From Polyangium fumosum (GTDB lineage Bacteria; Myxococcota_A; Polyangia; Polyangiales; Polyangiaceae): a stretch of DNA of 41,031 nt. Positions 15,527 through 30,171 of this stretch are shown piece after piece. A program made the translations under genes and the position numbers. Within the stretch, counting starts at the first letter, position 1. Each line of letters begins with the position of its first letter. The notes under the pieces were generated by a model. The model saw nothing but the letters and a program-made list of their open reading frames with translations. It was not told the DNA's origin and did not search any database. The stretch lies in the NCBI RefSeq assembly GCF_005144585.1, contig NZ_SSMQ01000092.1, forward strand, positions 1 through 41,031, in the 5' to 3' direction.

Positions 15527-17443
15527 ATGGCCTCGATGGAAGTCGTCTCGGCGTGCCCCCTTCGTGTCGGCTCGATCCTCTGGCAGCCGCGGGAGGGCGC
15601 GTACGTGCTCACGGTCGTCTGCAAGGCGACCTTCGCCCTCGCGCCGGAGGTCTCCAGCCTCGCCGAGGAGCAGGACGATCCGAACGAGCATGACGAATAC
15701 TGGGACGACGACGCGCGGCGCAGCCTGAGCGCGGCGAGCGACCTCGCCCCGTTCAAGCGTGGCGCCGACATCCTCCTCGTCGGCCACGCCTACGCGCCCC
15801 ACGCCTCGCCGGGCGGGCCCTTTTTCGCGCGGCTCGGGGTCGGCGACGTGCTCGACAAGGCGATCGAGGTGCACGGCGAGCGCGCATGGACCGCCGACGG
15901 GCGCCTGCTCGAAGAGCCCCCCGCGGGCCGGGTGGCGCTCCGGTGGGAGCGGGCCGCGGGCGGGCCCGGGACGACGAACCCGGTGGGCGTGCCGCCGAAC
16001 GCGCCGCCGGATGCGCGGCACCTCCGGCGCGTGCCGAACTTCGGGCCGCCCGGCTTCCGCTTGAGGAGCCCCTCGGACGTGATCCCGCCGGTCGGCTTCG
16101 GGCCGATCGCGCCGACGTGGCCCGCGCGCCAGGAACACCTGCCCCGGCACGCGGCGGGCTGGGATCCGCACCGGCTCGGGGCGTGGCCGCTGCCCGCCGG
16201 GATCGACGCGTCGTTCTTCAACACGGCGCCGCCGGACCAGCGCGTCGCGGAGCTCGTGGGCGACGAGCGGATCTCGCTCACGAACCTGCACCCGCACGTC
16301 CCCGTGCTCTCGACGCGCCTCGCGCTCGTCAAGCCACGCGCGCTCGTGCAGAAGAGCGGGGCGCCGGCCGATCTGCGCTTCCGGTGCGACACGCTTTTCC
16401 TCGACACGAACCGGGGCATCGCCTCGCTCACGTGGCGGGGCAGCGTGCCGCTCGTGTCGCCGCACGAAGACGGGTGCGTCGTGGTGACGATCGAGGCGAG
16501 TGATCGTCAGCTCTCCGGGGGCGGCGCGCCCGGCACCGTAAAGCTCGATTGGCGCTCGAGCCAGCAGGCGGCCGTCTCCCCTGCCCTGCCCTTCACGCCC
16601 AGCGATCCGGCGGACACGGAGGCGGATGGCCTCTCCCTGGAGGACACGACGACGATCTCGCCCGACTCCCAGCGGCTCGACCCGGGGGCGGCGTTGCCCT
16701 TCGTCAAACCCCCGCTCGCCGTCCTCGGGGCCGCCTTGCCCGCGCCGCCGCCGGTGCCGCCGCCCGTGCGACCCCCGTCGTCCGTCCCGCCGCCGCCGCT
16801 CGCCTTCGAGCCGCCGCCCGCGTCACGCCCCGCGCCGCCCGACCGGGTCGCGCCGGGCCTGCCCCAGGCGCCGCCGATGATCGGCCCCCTCGCGACGCTC
16901 CGCGACCCCGGGCCGCCCGAGATCGTCCCGCCGCCTGCGCCCGCGCCTGCGTCCGCCCCCCCTGCGCCCGCCCCGGCCACGCCGGAGCCTGCGACCGCGC
17001 CGGAGATCGATCCGGCGACCGTCTCGATCGAGCAGTTCGCGGCGATCTCAGCCGAAATCGCGGAGGAACGCGAGGCCCGCGCCGACGTCCTCCGGCGGCA
17101 CGAGCTGACAGCGCGGACCTTCGCCGAGGTCGAGCGCCGGTGTTCACGTGTGCTCGCCGAGGAGGCGTCCCGCGGGGAGCATGACGAGCGGGCCAAGTAC
17201 GACCGCTCGTACGTCGCCGTGGTGGAGGGGTTTCGGGGGCCGATCAAGCCCGACGAACATGCGCGGATCCTGGCGTCCCTCGTGCGGGGACAAGCCCATG
17301 CCGTGCTCGACGAGCTCCACATTCAGCGGCCGGCGCTGATGCCCCTCCTGCGCTCCTGGGCGAAGCGCGCAGCCGGTACCACGGGCGCCGGTGCAGGCGC
17401 GCTCGACGCGCTCGACGCCTTCCGCGGAACGAAGCGCGGCTGA
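15527..17443 (+). CDS. Second DUF2169 protein with proline-rich linker
   Basis: A 638-residue protein. Residues about 1-330 are a DUF2169 domain (VLTVVCKATFALAPE near the N-terminus, DASFFNTAPPDQRV near 225, then a LTNLHPHVP block). It differs clearly from the DUF2169 part of the 907-residue fusion. Residues about 390-500 are extremely Pro/Ala-rich (runs of PPPV and PAPAP) and should be a long flexible linker. The last ~130 residues are charged and helical (EIAEEREARADVLRRHEL...) and form a separate domain with no family I recognise. It is the last gene of the cassette, 19 bases after the tip gene. Two different DUF2169 proteins in one operon suggest two cargoes or two steps of loading. That is inference. 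Confidence 0.88.
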   Translation: MASMEVVSACPLRVGSILWQPREGAYVLTVVCKATFALAPEVSSLAEEQDDPNEHDEYWDDDARRSLSAASDLAPFKRGADILLVGHAYAPHASPGGPFFARLGVGDVLDKAIEVHGERAWTADGRLLEEPPAGRVALRWERAAGGPGTTNPVGVPPNAPPDARHLRRVPNFGPPGFRLRSPSDVIPPVGFGPIAPTWPARQEHLPRHAAGWDPHRLGAWPLPAGIDASFFNTAPPDQRVAELVGDERISLTNLHPHVPVLSTRLALVKPRALVQKSGAPADLRFRCDTLFLDTNRGIASLTWRGSVPLVSPHEDGCVVVTIEASDRQLSGGGAPGTVKLDWRSSQQAAVSPALPFTPSDPADTEADGLSLEDTTTISPDSQRLDPGAALPFVKPPLAVLGAALPAPPPVPPPVRPPSSVPPPPLAFEPPPASRPAPPDRVAPGLPQAPPMIGPLATLRDPGPPEIVPPPAPAPASAPPAPAPATPEPATAPEIDPATVSIEQFAAISAEIAEEREARADVLRRHELTARTFAEVERRCSRVLAEEASRGEHDERAKYDRSYVAVVEGFRGPIKPDEHARILASLVRGQAHAVLDELHIQRPALMPLLRSWAKRAAGTTGAGAGALDALDAFRGTKRG

Positions 17444-17904
17444 GCAGGAACGTCCGCGTCCAGGCGCCTCCCGCGGGTGCAGCGACGCAAAACGAACACG
17501 AGCTTCTGCGCAGCCGTCCTTGCATCGACGCGAAGGCGCCCGGGACACGTGCACAGCGTGGGATGCACCGGCGCGAGAGCGGCTGGGACGCCGTGACGGG
17601 CGCGCTTGCGTCGACGCAGGAGGCGCCGGGACCCCGTCACGACGATGCCTGCGTCGACGCAAGGGCCCCCGCGCCGCGGGCACGACGTCCCTCGCGCGCG
17701 TGCAAGGCACGCTGTGCAGGTGTTTGGAGCGCTTTGCACGCACGCACCCCCCACCGAGCAACGGCCCTCGGGCTTGTTGCGCGCGTGCACGGCGCGTCGC
17801 GCACGCGCGCTGGAAGCTGCCGCGTCCGCGCACGCTCCCGCGCCCCCACCCGCTCCGGGTTCCTGCGCCCGGATCCGGCGGGCGGCGCGGGCGCGCAGGC
17901 GCCG
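17444..17904. other. Convergent intergenic region holding repeat copy 1
   Basis: This 461-base gap lies between the 3' ends of the T6SS operon and the minus-strand lipoprotein gene. Most of it is the 304-bp dispersed repeat described separately. Open frames here are not credible genes: the homologous copy at 29104 does not preserve a single frame. I found no classical T-tailed terminator. Confidence 0.6.
17511..17814 (+). repeat. Dispersed 304-bp non-coding repeat, copy 1
   Basis: This stretch aligns almost without gaps to 29104-29406. Shared blocks include GTCCTTGCA, GCGAAGGCGCCCGG, ATGCACCGGCGC, CGCGCTTGCGTCGACGCA, TGCAAGGCACGC and TTGCGCGCGTGCA. By hand, the first ~110 columns have about 21 mismatches, spread 7/8/6 over the three phases, so it is not evolving as protein-coding sequence. 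CTTGCGTCGACGCAGG at 17605-17620 is perfectly inverted at 17648-17663, giving a 16-bp stem with a 27-base loop. Many TTGC...GCAA-like units recur. A structured RNA, a protein-binding array or a mobile non-coding element are all possible. Confidence 0.8.
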
Positions 17905-18387
17905 TCAGAGCACCCAGCCGCAGGCCTTCAACGCGTCGCAGTCGCCGGCGCACACCGCGTCGACGAGGCATTTCACGTCGGCTTCCTTGTAACACTTGAT
18001 GGTGGTGCCCATCACGCAGTTGATGTTGCACTGCCCGACATCGGTCGAGGCCATGCAGCTCACGGAGAGCTCGCAGGTGTCCCCGTCGGACGCGCTCCCG
18101 CAGACCGCGCCCGCGCCCTGGTACGTGAGGCACCCCTCGGCGTTGTATTCGATGCCGGCCGGCAGGGCGCAGCCGCCGCCGCTGCCCCCGGCGGCCGACC
18201 CGCCGCCCGTCGACGACCCGCCGCCCTGCCCCCCTGCGCCGCCGCCACCCTCACTGCCGCCCCCCGAGCCGCCGCCCCCCGGCCCCGACGCACCCGGGCC
18301 CGCGCCACCGTCGCCACCCGTCCCCTCGCTGCTGCAAGCGACCCACGAGACGAGCGACACCATGAAGATCAAGAGGAATGTACGCAT
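17905..18387 (-). CDS. Cysteine-rich lipoprotein with Gly/Ser linker
   Basis: The product has 160 residues if started at 18387 (MRTFLLIFMVSLVSWVACSS), which gives a proper signal peptide with lipobox and GGGGGCGGA just upstream. A longer frame to 18489 would destroy the signal peptide. After the lipobox comes a long Gly/Ser linker of about 60 residues. A compact C-terminal domain of about 80 residues follows, with many cysteines (GCLTYQG, CELSVSC, CNINCVMG, CLVDAVCAGDCDALKACG), likely disulphide-bonded. It resembles numerous small uncharacterised myxobacterial surface lipoproteins. It is convergent with the T6SS operon and divergent from the PAS-STAS gene. Confidence 0.8.
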   Translation of the reverse strand: MRTFLLIFMVSLVSWVACSSEGTGGDGGAGPGASGPGGGGSGGGSEGGGGAGGQGGGSSTGGGSAAGGSGGGCALPAGIEYNAEGCLTYQGAGAVCGSASDGDTCELSVSCMASTDVGQCNINCVMGTTIKCYKEADVKCLVDAVCAGDCDALKACGWVL

Positions 18388-18724
18388 TCCGCCCCCATCG
18401 CATGAAGGGCGGACACATCCAAGTTCCTCGCAGCGTGCAAGCGCTCGTGTCGTCCGGGCGTGCGCGGCGAGCGCCTTCGGTCGGGGCACGGGACGCGGCG
18501 GGGCCGCTCCTGGAACCGAGTACGCCGGGTCCTTCCGTCGCCGTGACGTTCATGGTGGACCTTTCCACCCTCACGCGTGACAGTCGTGCCATCGCGTGTT
18601 CGCTACGATCGAATGGTGCCAAACGCTTGACGTGCACTTCCGTCTCGGGCGACATTTCCTCCTGGCATCAAGCTCCGCGCTCCATCCTCCTGGTCGTCGC
18701 GAGAAGGAAGGCAGAGTCGTAAGC
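18388..18724. promoter_or_regulatory. Divergent promoter region, lipoprotein / PAS-STAS operon
   Basis: This 337-base non-coding region is where promoters of both divergent units should lie. GGTGGA at 18554-18559 is inverted as TCCACC at 18564-18569, a short hairpin or operator. TTGACG at about 18627 could be a -35 element for the PAS-STAS gene, but no good -10 follows at the right distance. No further feature could be supported. Confidence 0.35.
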
Positions 18725-19636
18725 ATGGACAGGCCCTTCACTCACCAACCGGTTTCCGTCGAAACGAACGTCGATTCGCTCCGCCAACGCCTTGCCGATC
18801 TGAAGAGACAAGTCGACGTGCAAGCCGAGGAGATCACACGGGTCCGCGCGGACGCCCTGCGATATCGTCGGTATTTCAACCTCGCGCAGGTGGGGATGGC
18901 CATCACGTCCCCCGACACCGGTTGGATCGAGTTCAATGGCCGGCTCTGCGAGCAGCTCGGCTATGCACCGGACGAGCTGAGGACGACGACGTGGGTCTCC
19001 CTCACGCATCCCGAGGACGTCTCGCTCGACATGGACCTGTTCGCCAGCCTCGTCAAAGGCGAGATTCAGCGATACAGCCTCGACAAACGATTCGTGCGCA
19101 AAAACGGGAGCATCATGTATGGGAACATTCTCCTGCAAGGTGTCTACCGCGACGACGGGTCCTTCGACCACCTCTTTGGCTTTCTGCACGACATCACCGA
19201 ACGCTGGGAGGGCGAACGGGAGAGGTTGGCGCTCAAGCAGGAGATCATCGACGCACAAAAGAGGGCGCTGCGCGAGCTGTCGACCCCATTGATCCCCGTC
19301 GCAGAGCACGTCCTCGTGATGCCGCTCGTGGGCACGATCGACAACGTCCGCGCCCAGGCGGTGCTCGAGGTGCTGCTCGACGGCGTCATGCGGCACAATG
19401 CAAGAATGACCATCCTCGACGTCACCGGCGTGGAGGTCGTGGACATGGAGGTCATGAACGCGCTCGTTCAAGCCGCCCGCGCCGTCAATCTGCTGGGCGC
19501 GCAAGCCATCCTGACGGGGATCCAGCCGCGCATCGCCAAGACGCTCGTGGACCTTCAAGCCGATCTGAGCACCATCATGACCCTCAGCACCGTCCGAGAG
19601 GGCATTTCCTATGCCCTGGGGAGGCAAAAAACATGA
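18725..19636 (+). CDS. Coiled-coil / PAS / STAS regulator (RsbR-like)
   Basis: This is a 303-residue soluble regulator. Residues 15-45 form a heptad-rich helix. Residues 47-165 are a PAS domain (FNLAQVGMAI, NGRLCEQLGYAPDEL, THPEDV, LHDITER). A linking helix leads into a STAS domain at about 186-300 (STPLIPV, LVMPLVGTID, ILDVTGVEVVDMEV, LTGIQPRIAKTL). This is the layout of RsbR-type stressosome proteins, in which an N-terminal sensor controls a STAS domain phosphorylated on threonine. T234 in DVTGV is at the usual acceptor position, and T264 lies in LTGI. No cognate switch kinase or phosphatase is nearby. I chose the ATG at 18725 because the upstream extension is low quality. The stop overlaps the start of the isoprenoid synthase gene (ATGA), so the PAS ligand may control that enzyme or its expression. 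Confidence 0.88.
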   Translation: MDRPFTHQPVSVETNVDSLRQRLADLKRQVDVQAEEITRVRADALRYRRYFNLAQVGMAITSPDTGWIEFNGRLCEQLGYAPDELRTTTWVSLTHPEDVSLDMDLFASLVKGEIQRYSLDKRFVRKNGSIMYGNILLQGVYRDDGSFDHLFGFLHDITERWEGERERLALKQEIIDAQKRALRELSTPLIPVAEHVLVMPLVGTIDNVRAQAVLEVLLDGVMRHNARMTILDVTGVEVVDMEVMNALVQAARAVNLLGAQAILTGIQPRIAKTLVDLQADLSTIMTLSTVREGISYALGRQKT

Positions 19637-20823: not shown

Positions 20824-20835
20824 ACGGGCGCAGGC

Positions 20836-21184
20836 CGTTGCGCCGGGGCGCTGCCCCGGACCCCGCGGGGGGCTGTCCGCCCCCTCGACCCCGGACCAGG
20901 CACGGCCTGGACCGAAGGTGGAAGAACTGCGCGGTGCGCAGTTCTTCCAACGGGCCGGTGGCAAGACCATGGAGGTGGGTTTCAAGCTGGCGGCGGGTAC
21001 GTTGCCGGCTGAACCTGCGGCGCTGTGGCCTTGGTGGGCGGGGTCGTCGCCGGTCTTGCCACCGGCCGTTCGATGAACTGCGCATCGCGCAGTTCATCGT
21101 CCTGGGTCCAGCGCCTCGCTGGTCCGGGTCCCGGGGCGGACAGCCCCGGGTGGGGCCTGGGGCAAAGCCCCAGCGCGGGGCGCC
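20836..21184. repeat. Large inverted-repeat element between convergent genes (copy 1)
   Basis: Two ~133-bp arms, 20836-20968 and 21052-21184, are imperfect reverse complements separated by ~83 bases. Each arm contains nested smaller hairpins: GGGGCGCTGCCCC, GGGGGGCTGTCCGCCCC, CCAGGC/GCCTGG, and GAAGAACTGCGC...GCGCAGTTCTTC. The element fills the whole gap between the isoprenoid synthase stop and the RND pump stop, so it would act as a bidirectional transcription terminator. Its structure suggests a non-autonomous mobile palindromic element. No transposase is present. Confidence 0.82.
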
Positions 21185-27802: not shown

Positions 27803-27816
27803 CCCGTTCACGGTGA

Positions 27817-28134
27817 AGCCGTTTCGCTGGGGCTTTGCCCCAGGCCCCAGCAGGGGCTCTCCGCCCCTGCACCCGGACCAGCGAGGCGCTGGACCCAAGC
27901 TCGATGAACTGCGCGATGCGCAGTTCATCGAACAGGCCCGGTCAAGACCAGCAACGGCGTTGCCCACCAAGGCAGCCGCGTTGCGGGTTCTGCTGGCACC
28001 CCGGCTCCTTCGTCGGCCTGTTTGAAAAACTGCGCGGAGCGCAGTTTTTCAACCCTGGGTCCAGCGCCTCGCTGGTCCGGGGTCGAGGGGGCGGACAGCC
28101 CCCCGCGGGGTCCGGGGCAGCGCCCCGGCGCGGC
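27817..28134. repeat. Large inverted-repeat element between convergent genes (copy 2)
   Basis: Arms at 27817-27949 and 28012-28134 are imperfect inverse copies, with a ~62-base spacer. They share the same nested hairpins as the element at 20836: GGGGCTTTGCCCC or GGGGCGCTGCCCC, a CCAGCGAGGCGCTGG stem, and GAACTGCGC...GCGCAGTTC. The right arm ends one base before the stop codon of the minus-strand gene at 28136, and the left arm starts 14 bases after the plus-strand stop. This exact fit between two convergent genes again suggests use as a two-way terminator. Confidence 0.82.
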
Positions 28135-28135
28135 G

Positions 28136-28852
28136 TCAAGCGACCGGCGTTGGCCCTTCGCGCGTCTCGCTGCTGACGCTGTCGCCTTCGTTCGTGTCTG
28201 CGGTTGCGAGGGCGGACCGTGTGCGGACCTCGTCGAAAAAGAGTGCTTGGGAGACCTTGTCGCGTGGCAGTTCGGCTTCGACGCGGGCCATCACCTCGGC
28301 GTACGTCGTGAGGAACCTGTCCTTCGTCGCATTCCGGGCTGCCCGCAGATCACGCGCGTGCTGGACGGCGATCTGACGGTTCAAGAGGGCGGCCTGGTAA
28401 CGCTGCCGGAGCACGCCGAGCTCGATCTTCTCGGCTTCGGCCTCGGGCCACGACGCCTGGGCGGCGGCGAGCCGCCCTTCGAGATCGATCATGGCTTCGA
28501 CTTGTGAGGCGCCGAAGAGGCGGATGATCGGGGCGGATCCCTCGGGGAAGACCAGGCTTGCGATTCGGCCTTTTCGTTTGCCGTCGGCGATCTCGGCCTT
28601 CTGCTGCGAGAGCCGGATGCGCCGATCGGAGACGTAATTCTCGTACTTGATGTCGACGCGGGTGGGGAGAATGGCCTTGAGGGCCTTCTCGTACTCCGCT
28701 TGCGCCGTCGCGAGCTCGGTGGCGCCCGCGCGCATCTTGTCTTCGAGCGAGGCGAATGCGGCCTGGCACGAGAACTTGCTGAGCATACATGTGGCGTGGG
28801 CGGCGAGATCGAGGCACTTCGAGACGGGGGTGCTCTGCGTGGGCGATTGCAT
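28136..28852 (-). CDS. Coiled-coil protein of unknown function
   Basis: A 238-residue protein with an excellent ribosome site (AAGGAGG eight bases before the ATG). Apart from a short N-terminus with two cysteines, it is almost wholly helical and charged. Long heptad-like stretches occur at about 30-75 and 115-215 (ELATAQAEYEKALKAIL, EAEAEKIELGVLRQRYQAAL). There is no signal peptide or membrane segment. It looks like a cytoplasmic coiled-coil structural or scaffold protein, and I recognise no family. The stop lies right against the inverted-repeat element. The 304-bp repeat copy 2 lies about 250 bases upstream of its start and may be part of its 5' region. Confidence 0.75.
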   Translation of the reverse strand: MQSPTQSTPVSKCLDLAAHATCMLSKFSCQAAFASLEDKMRAGATELATAQAEYEKALKAILPTRVDIKYENYVSDRRIRLSQQKAEIADGKRKGRIASLVFPEGSAPIIRLFGASQVEAMIDLEGRLAAAQASWPEAEAEKIELGVLRQRYQAALLNRQIAVQHARDLRAARNATKDRFLTTYAEVMARVEAELPRDKVSQALFFDEVRTRSALATADTNEGDSVSSETREGPTPVA

Positions 28853-29484
28853 CGAGGCATCCTCCTTGGAAGGGGATACGCGCCGAGGAGCGTGAGGGCG
28901 CTCGGGGCGCGTGGGTTTCGTGGGTGCGCGTGGTCATCATCGCGCGGGCCGTTCGACGTTGTGGCCGAACGTTTCTTGGGCGGCTTTGCTCTTGCAACGT
29001 GGGCTGGAGCTGGCGAAGGCCGCCTGCGGCGTGCGCGCGAGGGGGTCGCGCCACGCGCCTCGCCTGCGCTTGCGCCGATGCCCATCGAGCGCGCGCGCCT
29101 GCGCGATCGTCCTTGCAGCGGCGCGAAGGCGCCCGGTCCATGTGCGCGGCGCGGAATGCACCGGCGCAACGGCGGCGGGGACGCTGCGATCTGCGCGCTT
29201 GCGTCGACGCAAACGGGGGCAGGACCACGGCACGGCGACACTTGCGCGCGCGCACGCGCTCCCGCGCCGCGGGCGCGACGTCCCTCGCGCACATGCAAGG
29301 CACGCCGCGCGGATGGCTCGGGGCGCCTTGCACGCATGCGACACCCACCGAGCGATTGGCATCGGGCCCTTTGCGCGCGTGCATGGCGAGTCGCGCACCT
29401 GCTGGACGAGCTGTCGCGTCGATCGACGCTTCCTGGTGTCCCCGCGCGCGGGTGCAAAACGCGCGTGCACCCCACGCGCACCCC
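28853..29484. other. Intergenic region holding repeat copy 2
   Basis: 632 bases lie between two minus-strand genes. About half is the 304-bp repeat (29104-29406). The part next to 28852 must carry the promoter of the coiled-coil gene, but no clear promoter is visible. Open frames here do not look coding. Confidence 0.55.
29104..29406 (+). repeat. Dispersed 304-bp non-coding repeat, copy 2
   Basis: This is the same orientation and almost the same length as 17511-17814, roughly 80 percent identical by eye over the first 110 bases and less in the middle. The palindrome TTGCGTCGACGCAA is kept at its first position. Its inverted partner has changed to a GC-rich variant, so the long stem of copy 1 is not conserved in full. 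It lies between two minus-strand genes rather than two 3' ends, so a pure terminator role does not explain both copies. Confidence 0.8.
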
Positions 29485-30171
29485 TCAGGGCGGAGCGCGC
29501 AGCGAAAGGTCGCTCGCGAGCTTGTCGAAAAGCGCCGCCGCCATCGTCGGCACGTACGTCTCTGCCCACCGCTCGAGCAGCGCCGCGAACCCCGCGACCT
29601 CCGCCTCGACCTCCGCGAGCGCCGCGCGTAGCACCGCCGGCGCGACCTCGATCGCCGCTTCTTTTTTCTCGTGGTACCCGAGCGCCAGCAGCCCCGTGTC
29701 GAGACGCGCGATGTAGGGCGTCGGATCGTGCCCGCCCCACGGCGGCGGCCCGCCTTCGGCGAACGTGATCCACGCGCGCCAGCTTTCGAGCCCCGTGCAG
29801 CACTCCGGCGCCAGCACCAGCGCGCCGCCGCACGTGATCTCGATCCCGCCGGCCACCACCACCTTCTCCTCCGAAAGCAGCCGCCGCGCCACCGCCTCCG
29901 CCGTGGGTTCGAGCTCGTCGTCGGTCCCGAACCCGTACATCGCGATCGCCGCCATCACCGTCCCGACCTCGAGGGGATCCATCGCCCCGGTCAGCGTGAT
30001 CGTACGAAACCCTTCTTCGCGGCGGTACGGGTGCGTCGGTGACGACGGCGGCACGAAGTCGGCCCGCGCCTCCTCGCTGAACAGCGCCCCGCGCCAATGC
30101 GGCCACGGCAGCACCTCCCCCACCCCGTGCGACCGCACGACGATCGCGTGGCACCGCAATTCGCTCGCCAT
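29485..30171 (-). CDS. Hypothetical cytoplasmic protein
   Basis: A 228-residue protein without signal peptide or membrane segment. The N-terminal half has alternating beta-type segments (CHAIVVRSHGVGEVL, EEGFRTITLTGAMDPLEVGT). The middle contains GGIEITCGGALVLAPECCTGLESWRAWI and an aromatic-rich GGPPPWGGHDPTPYI. The C-terminal ~60 residues are a long amphipathic helix (VLRAALAEVEAEVAGFAALLERW). It is encoded alone, divergent from the OmpA-domain gene. I recognise no family. Composition and codon use look like a genuine host gene. Confidence 0.72.
   Translation of the reverse strand: MASELRCHAIVVRSHGVGEVLPWPHWRGALFSEEARADFVPPSSPTHPYRREEGFRTITLTGAMDPLEVGTVMAAIAMYGFGTDDELEPTAEAVARRLLSEEKVVVAGGIEITCGGALVLAPECCTGLESWRAWITFAEGGPPPWGGHDPTPYIARLDTGLLALGYHEKKEAAIEVAPAVLRAALAEVEAEVAGFAALLERWAETYVPTMAAALFDKLASDLSLRAPP

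Follow-up and report, generated by a model that had tools for sequence, protein, structure and literature searches.

What kind of element is the non-coding sequence of 304 bp that lies twice, in unrelated contexts, within 41,031 nucleotides of Polyangium fumosum DNA (contig NZ_SSMQ01000092.1 of assembly GCF_005144585.1, positions 1 to 41,031; hereafter the window)? A first-pass annotation had left the choice between a family of structured RNAs and DNA-binding arrays not tied to one gene type. The second part of this reading has stood and the first has not.

The repeats in the window consist of regularly spaced near-palindromes

Alignment of positions 17511-17814 with 29104-29406 gave 238 identical columns out of 306, with five gap columns (79.1% identity over ungapped columns), confirming that the two copies are nearly gap-free, and a search of the genome itself with the 304-bp query returned E 8.9e-63 between them. 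The even spread of mismatches over the three codon phases, first noticed in part of the alignment, holds for the whole copies (26/20/17), a non-protein pattern. For the 16 full copies of the sub-family to which the window's arrays belong, the mean non-consensus by codon phase was 0.143/0.125/0.099 (the two partial copies, G4c and G4f, were left out of these 16-copy alignments). Codon-phase and stop counts gave no protein-type pattern in any frame, and stops are scattered across the frames; some single frames are open by chance in this G+C-rich DNA.

When both copies were scanned for the core CTTGC-N6-GCAAG, requiring at least 7 of its 10 positions, each resolved into eight sites:

17476..17791, no strand assigned: array 1, 8 sites with 7-9/10 core positions each
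Site starts of array 1: 17476, 17519, 17562, 17605, 17648, 17691, 17733, 17776 (intervals 43, 43, 43, 43, 43, 42, 43)
17535..17561, no strand assigned: example of a 27-bp spacer of array 1; the spacers carry a weak dyad, CNNGCMSNSKGCNNG
17605..17620, no strand assigned: array 1 site, CTTGCGTCGACGCAGG, 9/10 core positions
17648..17663, no strand assigned: next array 1 site, 43 bp on, CCTGCGTCGACGCAAG, 9/10 core positions
29069..29385, no strand assigned: array 2, 8 sites with 7-9/10 core positions each
Site starts of array 2: 29069, 29112, 29155, 29198, 29241, 29284, 29327, 29370 (all intervals 43)
29198..29213, no strand assigned: array 2 site, CTTGCGTCGACGCAAA, 9/10 core positions

The borders first given need correction: the left ends of the homology lie at about 17476 and 29069 and the right ends at about 17805 and 29397. 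The leftward extension of both copies is one extra site, which is missing from some other copies. The perfect 16-bp inverted pair annotated at 17605-17620/17648-17663 is present in copy 1. It is no stem: its two arms are two adjacent near-palindromic sites, 43 bp apart. Array 1 is flanked by the stop of a DUF2169 gene (15527-17443, plus strand) and a convergent ORF without Pfam match (17905-18489, minus strand), array 2 by two minus-strand genes without Pfam match (28136-28852 and 29485-30171).

The window also holds a separate repeat of about 320-350 bp, unrelated to the arrays, in opposite orientations at 20829-21177 and 27815-28136. It has hairpins of the GATGAACTGCGCGATGCGCAGTTCATC and GGGGCTTTGCCCC type and is far commoner than the arrays: a 15.5-kb query gave 56-80 matches in each of four genomes and, among the matches listed, most fell on these two places.

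Arrays occur in five of six Polyangium genomes

A search of the whole genome and of relatives yielded 16 further copies of the window's sub-family in the genus (2 of them partial), together with 11 arrays that have strongly diverged or unrelated spacers. The complete set of 29 arrays (27 full, 2 partial) comes from five of six Polyangium genomes:

G000: 5 arrays
G001: 2 arrays
G002: 8 arrays
G003: 0 arrays
G004: 9 arrays (two partial)
G005: 5 arrays

Note that the counts for G001, G002 and G005 are lower bounds, as they come from matches with at most two mismatches, by which weaker arrays may be missed. G003 yielded no array match even when up to three mismatches were allowed (control 3).

With the 304-bp query, four genus genomes (G000, G002, G004 and G005) gave long copies, and 9 of 39 genomes gave some match at E 0.001, five of these with short matches only. 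A two-site pattern, in which the 27 bp of the spacer were left free, brought out further arrays with different spacers. Applied to 183 genomes of the order with at most two mismatches, this pattern gave 92 forward matches in the six genus genomes (control 2), a few of which are non-array repeats of G004. The remaining 177 genomes gave 6 forward matches vs 16 for the reversed control, i.e. background. Within the order, as covered by these 183 genomes, the arrays are restricted to the genus. An exact two-site match in an Oscillospiraceae metagenome-assembled genome was discarded because it looks like an unrelated repeat.

For G004, 50 forward matches were obtained. We set aside six that belong to another repeat family (6.2-7.5 Mb), three within a tandem repeat at G004:C1:7524253-7524397 and one single match at 1946791. 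The tandem repeat is a simple one with a 43-bp period and palindrome-like units, apparently unrelated to the arrays. The other family, a dispersed repeat of the GTTGCGGC..CTTGCGGGGAYGCAAG type, occupies six places near the inferred terminus (6198413, 6248394, 6301766, 6316431, 6469404 and 7486810; loci L069, L070, L071, L013 and L074).

A 16-bp dyad recurs every 43 bp

From 110 non-redundant units out of 250, the site consensus is cTTGCRYSSRYGCAAg, symmetric over 16 bp. Across the 29 arrays, 203 of 221 intervals measure exactly 43 bp; this figure stems from a chain search that favours 43, and the count for strong sites (9 or more of the 10 core positions) is free of that bias. Over whole loci, the distances from one such site to another peak at 43 (74 pairs), 86 (55), 129 (42), 172 (30) and 215 (13), the runner-up being 85 with 4 pairs. 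A palindrome autocorrelation that uses no motif was highest at a lag of 43, 86 or 129 for 23 of the 29 arrays; for 12 arrays the best lag was 43 itself, compared with 7 of 1531 control windows. It fails in six arrays, array 2 of the window included (top lag 10).

Strong sites number 124 within arrays (9.7 kb) vs 38 in the remaining 520 kb. In sampled G004 DNA, solitary strong sites amount to 50 in 609 kb, with five control palindromes ranging from 2 to 124. Since solitary sites stay within the range of the controls, the array has to be regarded as the unit.

Symmetry extends to the centre of the site and into the spacer. The central bases 8 and 9 are self-complementary in 60 of 84 sites (37.3 expected). 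Spacer dyad symmetry in the 84 units reached 35.1, compared with a permuted mean of 7.9 (sd 5.0), a value attained in 0 of 20000 permutations; shared descent of the units may contribute to it. The weak spacer dyad, derived from 57 non-redundant spacers out of 171, is centred 21.5 bp from the sites, that is half-way between them, and may be a degenerate version of their half-site, repeated after about two helical turns. Some array ends (L041:9813, L043:10057 and similar ones) carry a half-site joined to GGATC-type letters (GGATCCACGACGCAAA, TTTGCGTCGGGGATCC), perhaps a specialised end.

The conserved feature is a DNA dyad and not an RNA stem

If the repeats were a structured RNA family, paired positions should change together. 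Copy 1 does fold better than its shuffles on both strands (z-scores -3.92 and -4.95), and the inner pairs 6-11 and 7-10 show a mild excess of complementarity (43 vs 37.3 and 54 vs 41.3 expected, n=84). Palindromes, though, fold in this way on both strands without any selection for RNA, and copy 2 folds no better than shuffled sequence (z -1.07). In the consensus fold, the covariation term contributed -0.79 of -76.47 kcal/mol, and a double change was preserved in 6 of 73 pairs. The five outer pairs of the palindrome vary independently over the 84 units, with no covariation (standard pairs at 3-14: 54 vs 57.4 expected; at 1-16: 44 vs 44.2), and Rfam gave no match to the window at the gathering threshold. 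The largest symmetry excess falls on bases 8 and 9, which are unable to pair in a hairpin; this fits a dyad read by a protein dimer. We consider a structured RNA extremely improbable and have rejected it on the grounds of covariation, central symmetry and the fold of copy 2.

Cores and register are kept where spacers have diverged

Identity at the ten core positions was compared with that of the spacers in 15 array pairs. In the four comparisons whose spacers are down to 41-47%, the cores stand at 76-81% and 7/9 to 9/9 sites are in register (core/spacer identity 0.79/0.41 for G4i-G5e with 8/9 sites in register, 0.81/0.46 for G4h-G1a with 9/9, 0.80/0.45 for G2e-G1a with 8/8 and 0.76/0.47 for G2f-G5e with 7/9). 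The pairs G4i-G2f (0.92/0.66, 9/9 sites in register) and G4h-G2e (0.94/0.75) also favour the core. A small core advantage is seen for G0a-G4a (0.91/0.87), G0b-G4b (0.91/0.84), G0c-G4d (0.89/0.81), G0b-G2a (0.81/0.75) and G4b-G2a (0.86/0.78). Four of the 15 pairs show none (G0b-G5c 0.74/0.79, G0e-G4g 0.88/0.89, G0e-G2h 0.62/0.62 and G4g-G2h 0.61/0.60), and in younger pairs the contrast is little or nil. In the window's sub-family, taken over its 16 full copies, core conservation was 0.928 vs 0.866 for spacers (p 0.00025). The most diverged comparisons thus bear signs of selection. The arrays G4i, G2f and G5e share a locus that is syntenic. About 500 bp of homology link G4h, G2e and G1a, but each of the three has a context of its own, and their orthology is unproven.

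Arrays are dispensable and some have kept their positions

Three pairs of arrays occupy conserved positions (G0a/G4a, G0b/G4b and G0c/G4d). At a transporter locus, G000, G002 and G004 have an array, and in G003 and G005 the two convergent genes are separated by 7-12 bp with the array absent. At the fmt locus the array is found in G002, G004 and G005, has decayed in G000 and is missing from G003, in which both loci are closed up. The arrays are dispensable, since G003 has none, G005 does without that of the transporter locus and the fmt-locus array of G000 has decayed. Insertion and deletion are indistinguishable here because the boundaries between presence and absence coincide with gene ends.

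Such a pattern brings to mind a selfish or mobile repeat of the MITE or REP kind, whose palindromes would be read by a transposase-type protein and whose dispersal would explain the copies. It would account for the similar copies of the window's sub-family at different places, the 500 bp that G4h, G2e and G1a share, the presence or absence of arrays between genes that almost abut in G003 and G005, and the young tandem array G2g of G002 with its near-identical units (88% matching). We nevertheless judge it unlikely: inspection by eye of one aligned presence/absence junction revealed neither a target-site duplication nor a terminal inverted repeat, positions are common to three species at two loci, unit number varies, the sub-families differ in their ends and have none in common, and core and register are preserved in the most diverged comparisons.

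In G001, the array's place at the fmt locus is taken by a DUF3226 gene and an AAA ATPase of the OLD/AbiEii type (L100:1528-3125), perhaps a defence pair; a similar ATPase gene adjoins an array in G002 (L043:9879-11171).

The neighbouring genes have no function in common

According to our own gene calls, 12 of the 29 arrays lie between convergent genes, 12 between co-directional and five between divergent ones. A called gene overlaps the array in 11 of the 29 cases, which makes some gene starts doubtful. All 58 immediate neighbours were compared with Pfam, a good number giving no match at all. Among them there was no partition domain (ParA, ParB, SopB), no helix-turn-helix family and no common function; the families that were seen include DUF2169, formyltransferase, protein kinases, Sir2, prolyl oligopeptidase, esterase, isochorismatase, acyl-CoA dehydrogenase, RCC1, Mrr and others.

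These data bear on the idea that the arrays are multi-operator regions, through which a repressor or activator controls adjacent genes in the fashion of a regulon with many operators. Dimeric regulators typically have palindromes of 16 bp as their sites, and the arrays are intergenic, 12 of them in co-directional and five in divergent settings. It is hard to reconcile with this idea that no promoter faces the array in the 12 convergent settings (with the reservation that 11 of the 29 arrays have overlapping, doubtful gene calls), that the 58 neighbours share no gene type and that single sites are not enriched outside arrays. Local regulation therefore appears rather improbable. In line with the first reading, it is the 43-bp periodicity of 16-bp dyads, their central-base symmetry, the unrelated neighbour genes and the preservation of core and register across diverging spacers that speak strongly for DNA-binding arrays.

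Two observations on neighbours are recorded for their own sake. PAS-STAS proteins are encoded 0.8-2 kb from arrays in three contexts (window 18596-19636, L047:7873-9030 and L014:3778-4731), which may be chance. Array G2e adjoins an open frame of 2179 aa (G002, L042:3408-9947) whose called start overlaps the array; this frame ends in a NucA/NucB nuclease, and its other matches are FG-GAP, RHS, SpvB-like and TcdB-like.

The arrays resemble the sopC centromere of plasmid F in form

Several kinds of repeated, partly palindromic or periodic non-coding DNA invite comparison. Plasmid iterons lie about 20 bp apart and are tied to rep genes, and REP/BIME elements are without a fixed long register. CRISPR repeats are near-identical and their spacers unique; in the arrays, units diverge while copies share spacers, the reverse of CRISPR, and a CRISPR array was rejected for this reason. 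The matS sites of E. coli, read by MatP, are single short palindromes and not arrayed; they share with the arrays a dispersed occurrence and, as far as G004 is concerned, a position on the terminus side of the chromosome. Chromosomal parS sites are likewise 16-bp palindromes, bound by ParB dimers, with several per chromosome. They differ in being single and near the origin, while the arrays have another palindrome and, in G004, a terminus-side position.

The closest likeness is to F sopC. Measured in the same way, sopC (NC_002483) has a period of 43 with 10.7 copies and 94% matches, and nine TGGGACCACGGTCCCA-type sites at intervals of 43, with one of 86. According to PMC6238139 and PMC9178275, the centromere comprises twelve repeats of 43 bp, and ParB_F/SopB binds the 16-bp inverted repeats within them. 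Tandem 43-bp repeats with one 16-bp inverted repeat per unit, about ten sites and a non-coding character are found in Polyangium as well. The palindrome is a different one, TGGGACCACGGTCCCA in F and the consensus given above in Polyangium, and the Polyangium arrays are chromosomal, number several per genome and consist of mostly diverged units. Furthermore, no parA-parB (sopAB) operon stands alongside any of the 29 arrays among the 58 immediate neighbours. Because parAB neighbours are lacking and no cognate protein was found, we do not assign the arrays to sopC/ParABS and call them sopC-like in form only. Our literature search found no paper describing such arrays, part of the results being judged by titles.

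An architecture identical to that of a plasmid centromere, combined with patchy presence and decay, could mean that the arrays are decoys on the chromosome, or what is left there of a centromere from a plasmid or phage, owing to incompatibility, capture or past integration. This is very unlikely, given that array 1 matched none of 72,556 records of plasmids and none of 50,697 of phages (E 1e-5, distant mode), that the exact two-site pattern had none in IMG/VR and that the neighbours are chromosomal and often syntenic.

Position relative to parS and the ordinary ParB

Each of the six genus genomes has four canonical parS sites (GTTTCACGTGAAAC). In G004, with a contig of 13.24 Mb, all four lie at 12.90 Mb, beside an ORF at 12.914 Mb which we take to be DnaN-like. 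The genes dnaA (11.65 Mb) and parB (8.38 Mb) are no clear origin markers in G004, and GC skew was too noisy in the sampled loci. The origin reference therefore consists of parS, the DnaN-like ORF and the strand polarity of GGGNAGGG, the E. coli KOPS motif, over 50 sampled loci. Strand counts of this motif were 49 vs 14 in 19 loci at 0.1-6.04 Mb, 26 vs 12 in 6 loci at 6.19-7.03 Mb and 17 vs 68 in 25 loci at 7.38-13.1 Mb. Polarity switches twice, at about 6-7.4 Mb and in the stretch from 13.1 to 0.1 Mb, the latter switch being a few hundred kb away from parS.

All nine arrays of G004 lie 3.35-6.44 Mb from 12.904 Mb, i.e. in the terminus-side half. Their mean distance of 4.86 Mb compares with 3.31 Mb expected (p 0.006, or p 0.014 with a cluster of three counted once), in one near-complete genome and by a test chosen post hoc, after looking. 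The arrays do not show the GTTYCACGTGRAAC consensus near the origin that marks the chromosomal parS class.

Could the ordinary chromosomal ParB use the arrays as a second type of centromere beside canonical parS? Both kinds of site are 16-bp palindromes, and in G004 as in G005 some 89 kb separate the fmt-locus array from parB. A ParB_N search gave one strong match per genome in all six, the G004 protein being a complete, ordinary ParB. The match in array-less G003 is at odds with such a use, as are array palindromes unlike GTTTCACGTGAAAC and the position of the G004 parS sites, away from the arrays. Use of the arrays by ordinary ParB is thus highly improbable.

Extra ParB_N matches occurred in large open frames of 692-784 aa in G000 (two), G004 and G005 (L035, L036, L037 and L038), the three that were scanned having no other Pfam match. 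They are absent from G001, G002 and G003 and do not track the arrays, since G001 and G002 carry arrays without them. SopB of F matches PF18090 and not PF02195, so that the ParB_N search may have missed a SopB-type protein; a tblastn search with SopB against 1.36 Mb of DNA returned nothing at E 1.

A model for the arrays

On balance we lean, with moderate confidence, towards the assembly of a larger structure rather than the control of one gene: the arrays would nucleate a ParB/SopB-like complex, or one equivalent in function, by which chromosomal DNA is condensed, tethered or segregated. Each copy would act in cis as a nucleoprotein array of 6 to 13 putative dimer-binding palindromes of 16 bp, 43 bp apart. 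This distance is close to four helical turns and would place the dimers on nearly the same face of the DNA, where cooperative assembly could unite them in one large complex. Five of the six Polyangium genomes carry from two to nine of these arrays, scattered over the chromosome. The chromosome-organising role is proposed because of the analogy with sopC, which has the same period and the same site length, and another palindrome.

A more far-reaching proposal is that the arrays form a second chromosome-wide, centromere-like system, in which sopC-type 43-bp arrays on the terminus-side half are read by an undescribed DNA-binding protein that organises or segregates this half of the 13-Mb chromosome independently of ParB/parS at the origin. 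We offer it tentatively, as a possibility that is doubtful at present.

The form is a known one, that of a plasmid centromere; what is new is the place and the number, several arrays being found per chromosome. In a genus with very large genomes, this and the signs of selection point either to array centromeres put to use on chromosomes or to a nucleoid organiser of a new kind. The array sequence is an exact bait for fishing out the binding protein, and the combination of 43 bp with a 16-bp dyad would suggest a recurring geometric solution for assembling such complexes.
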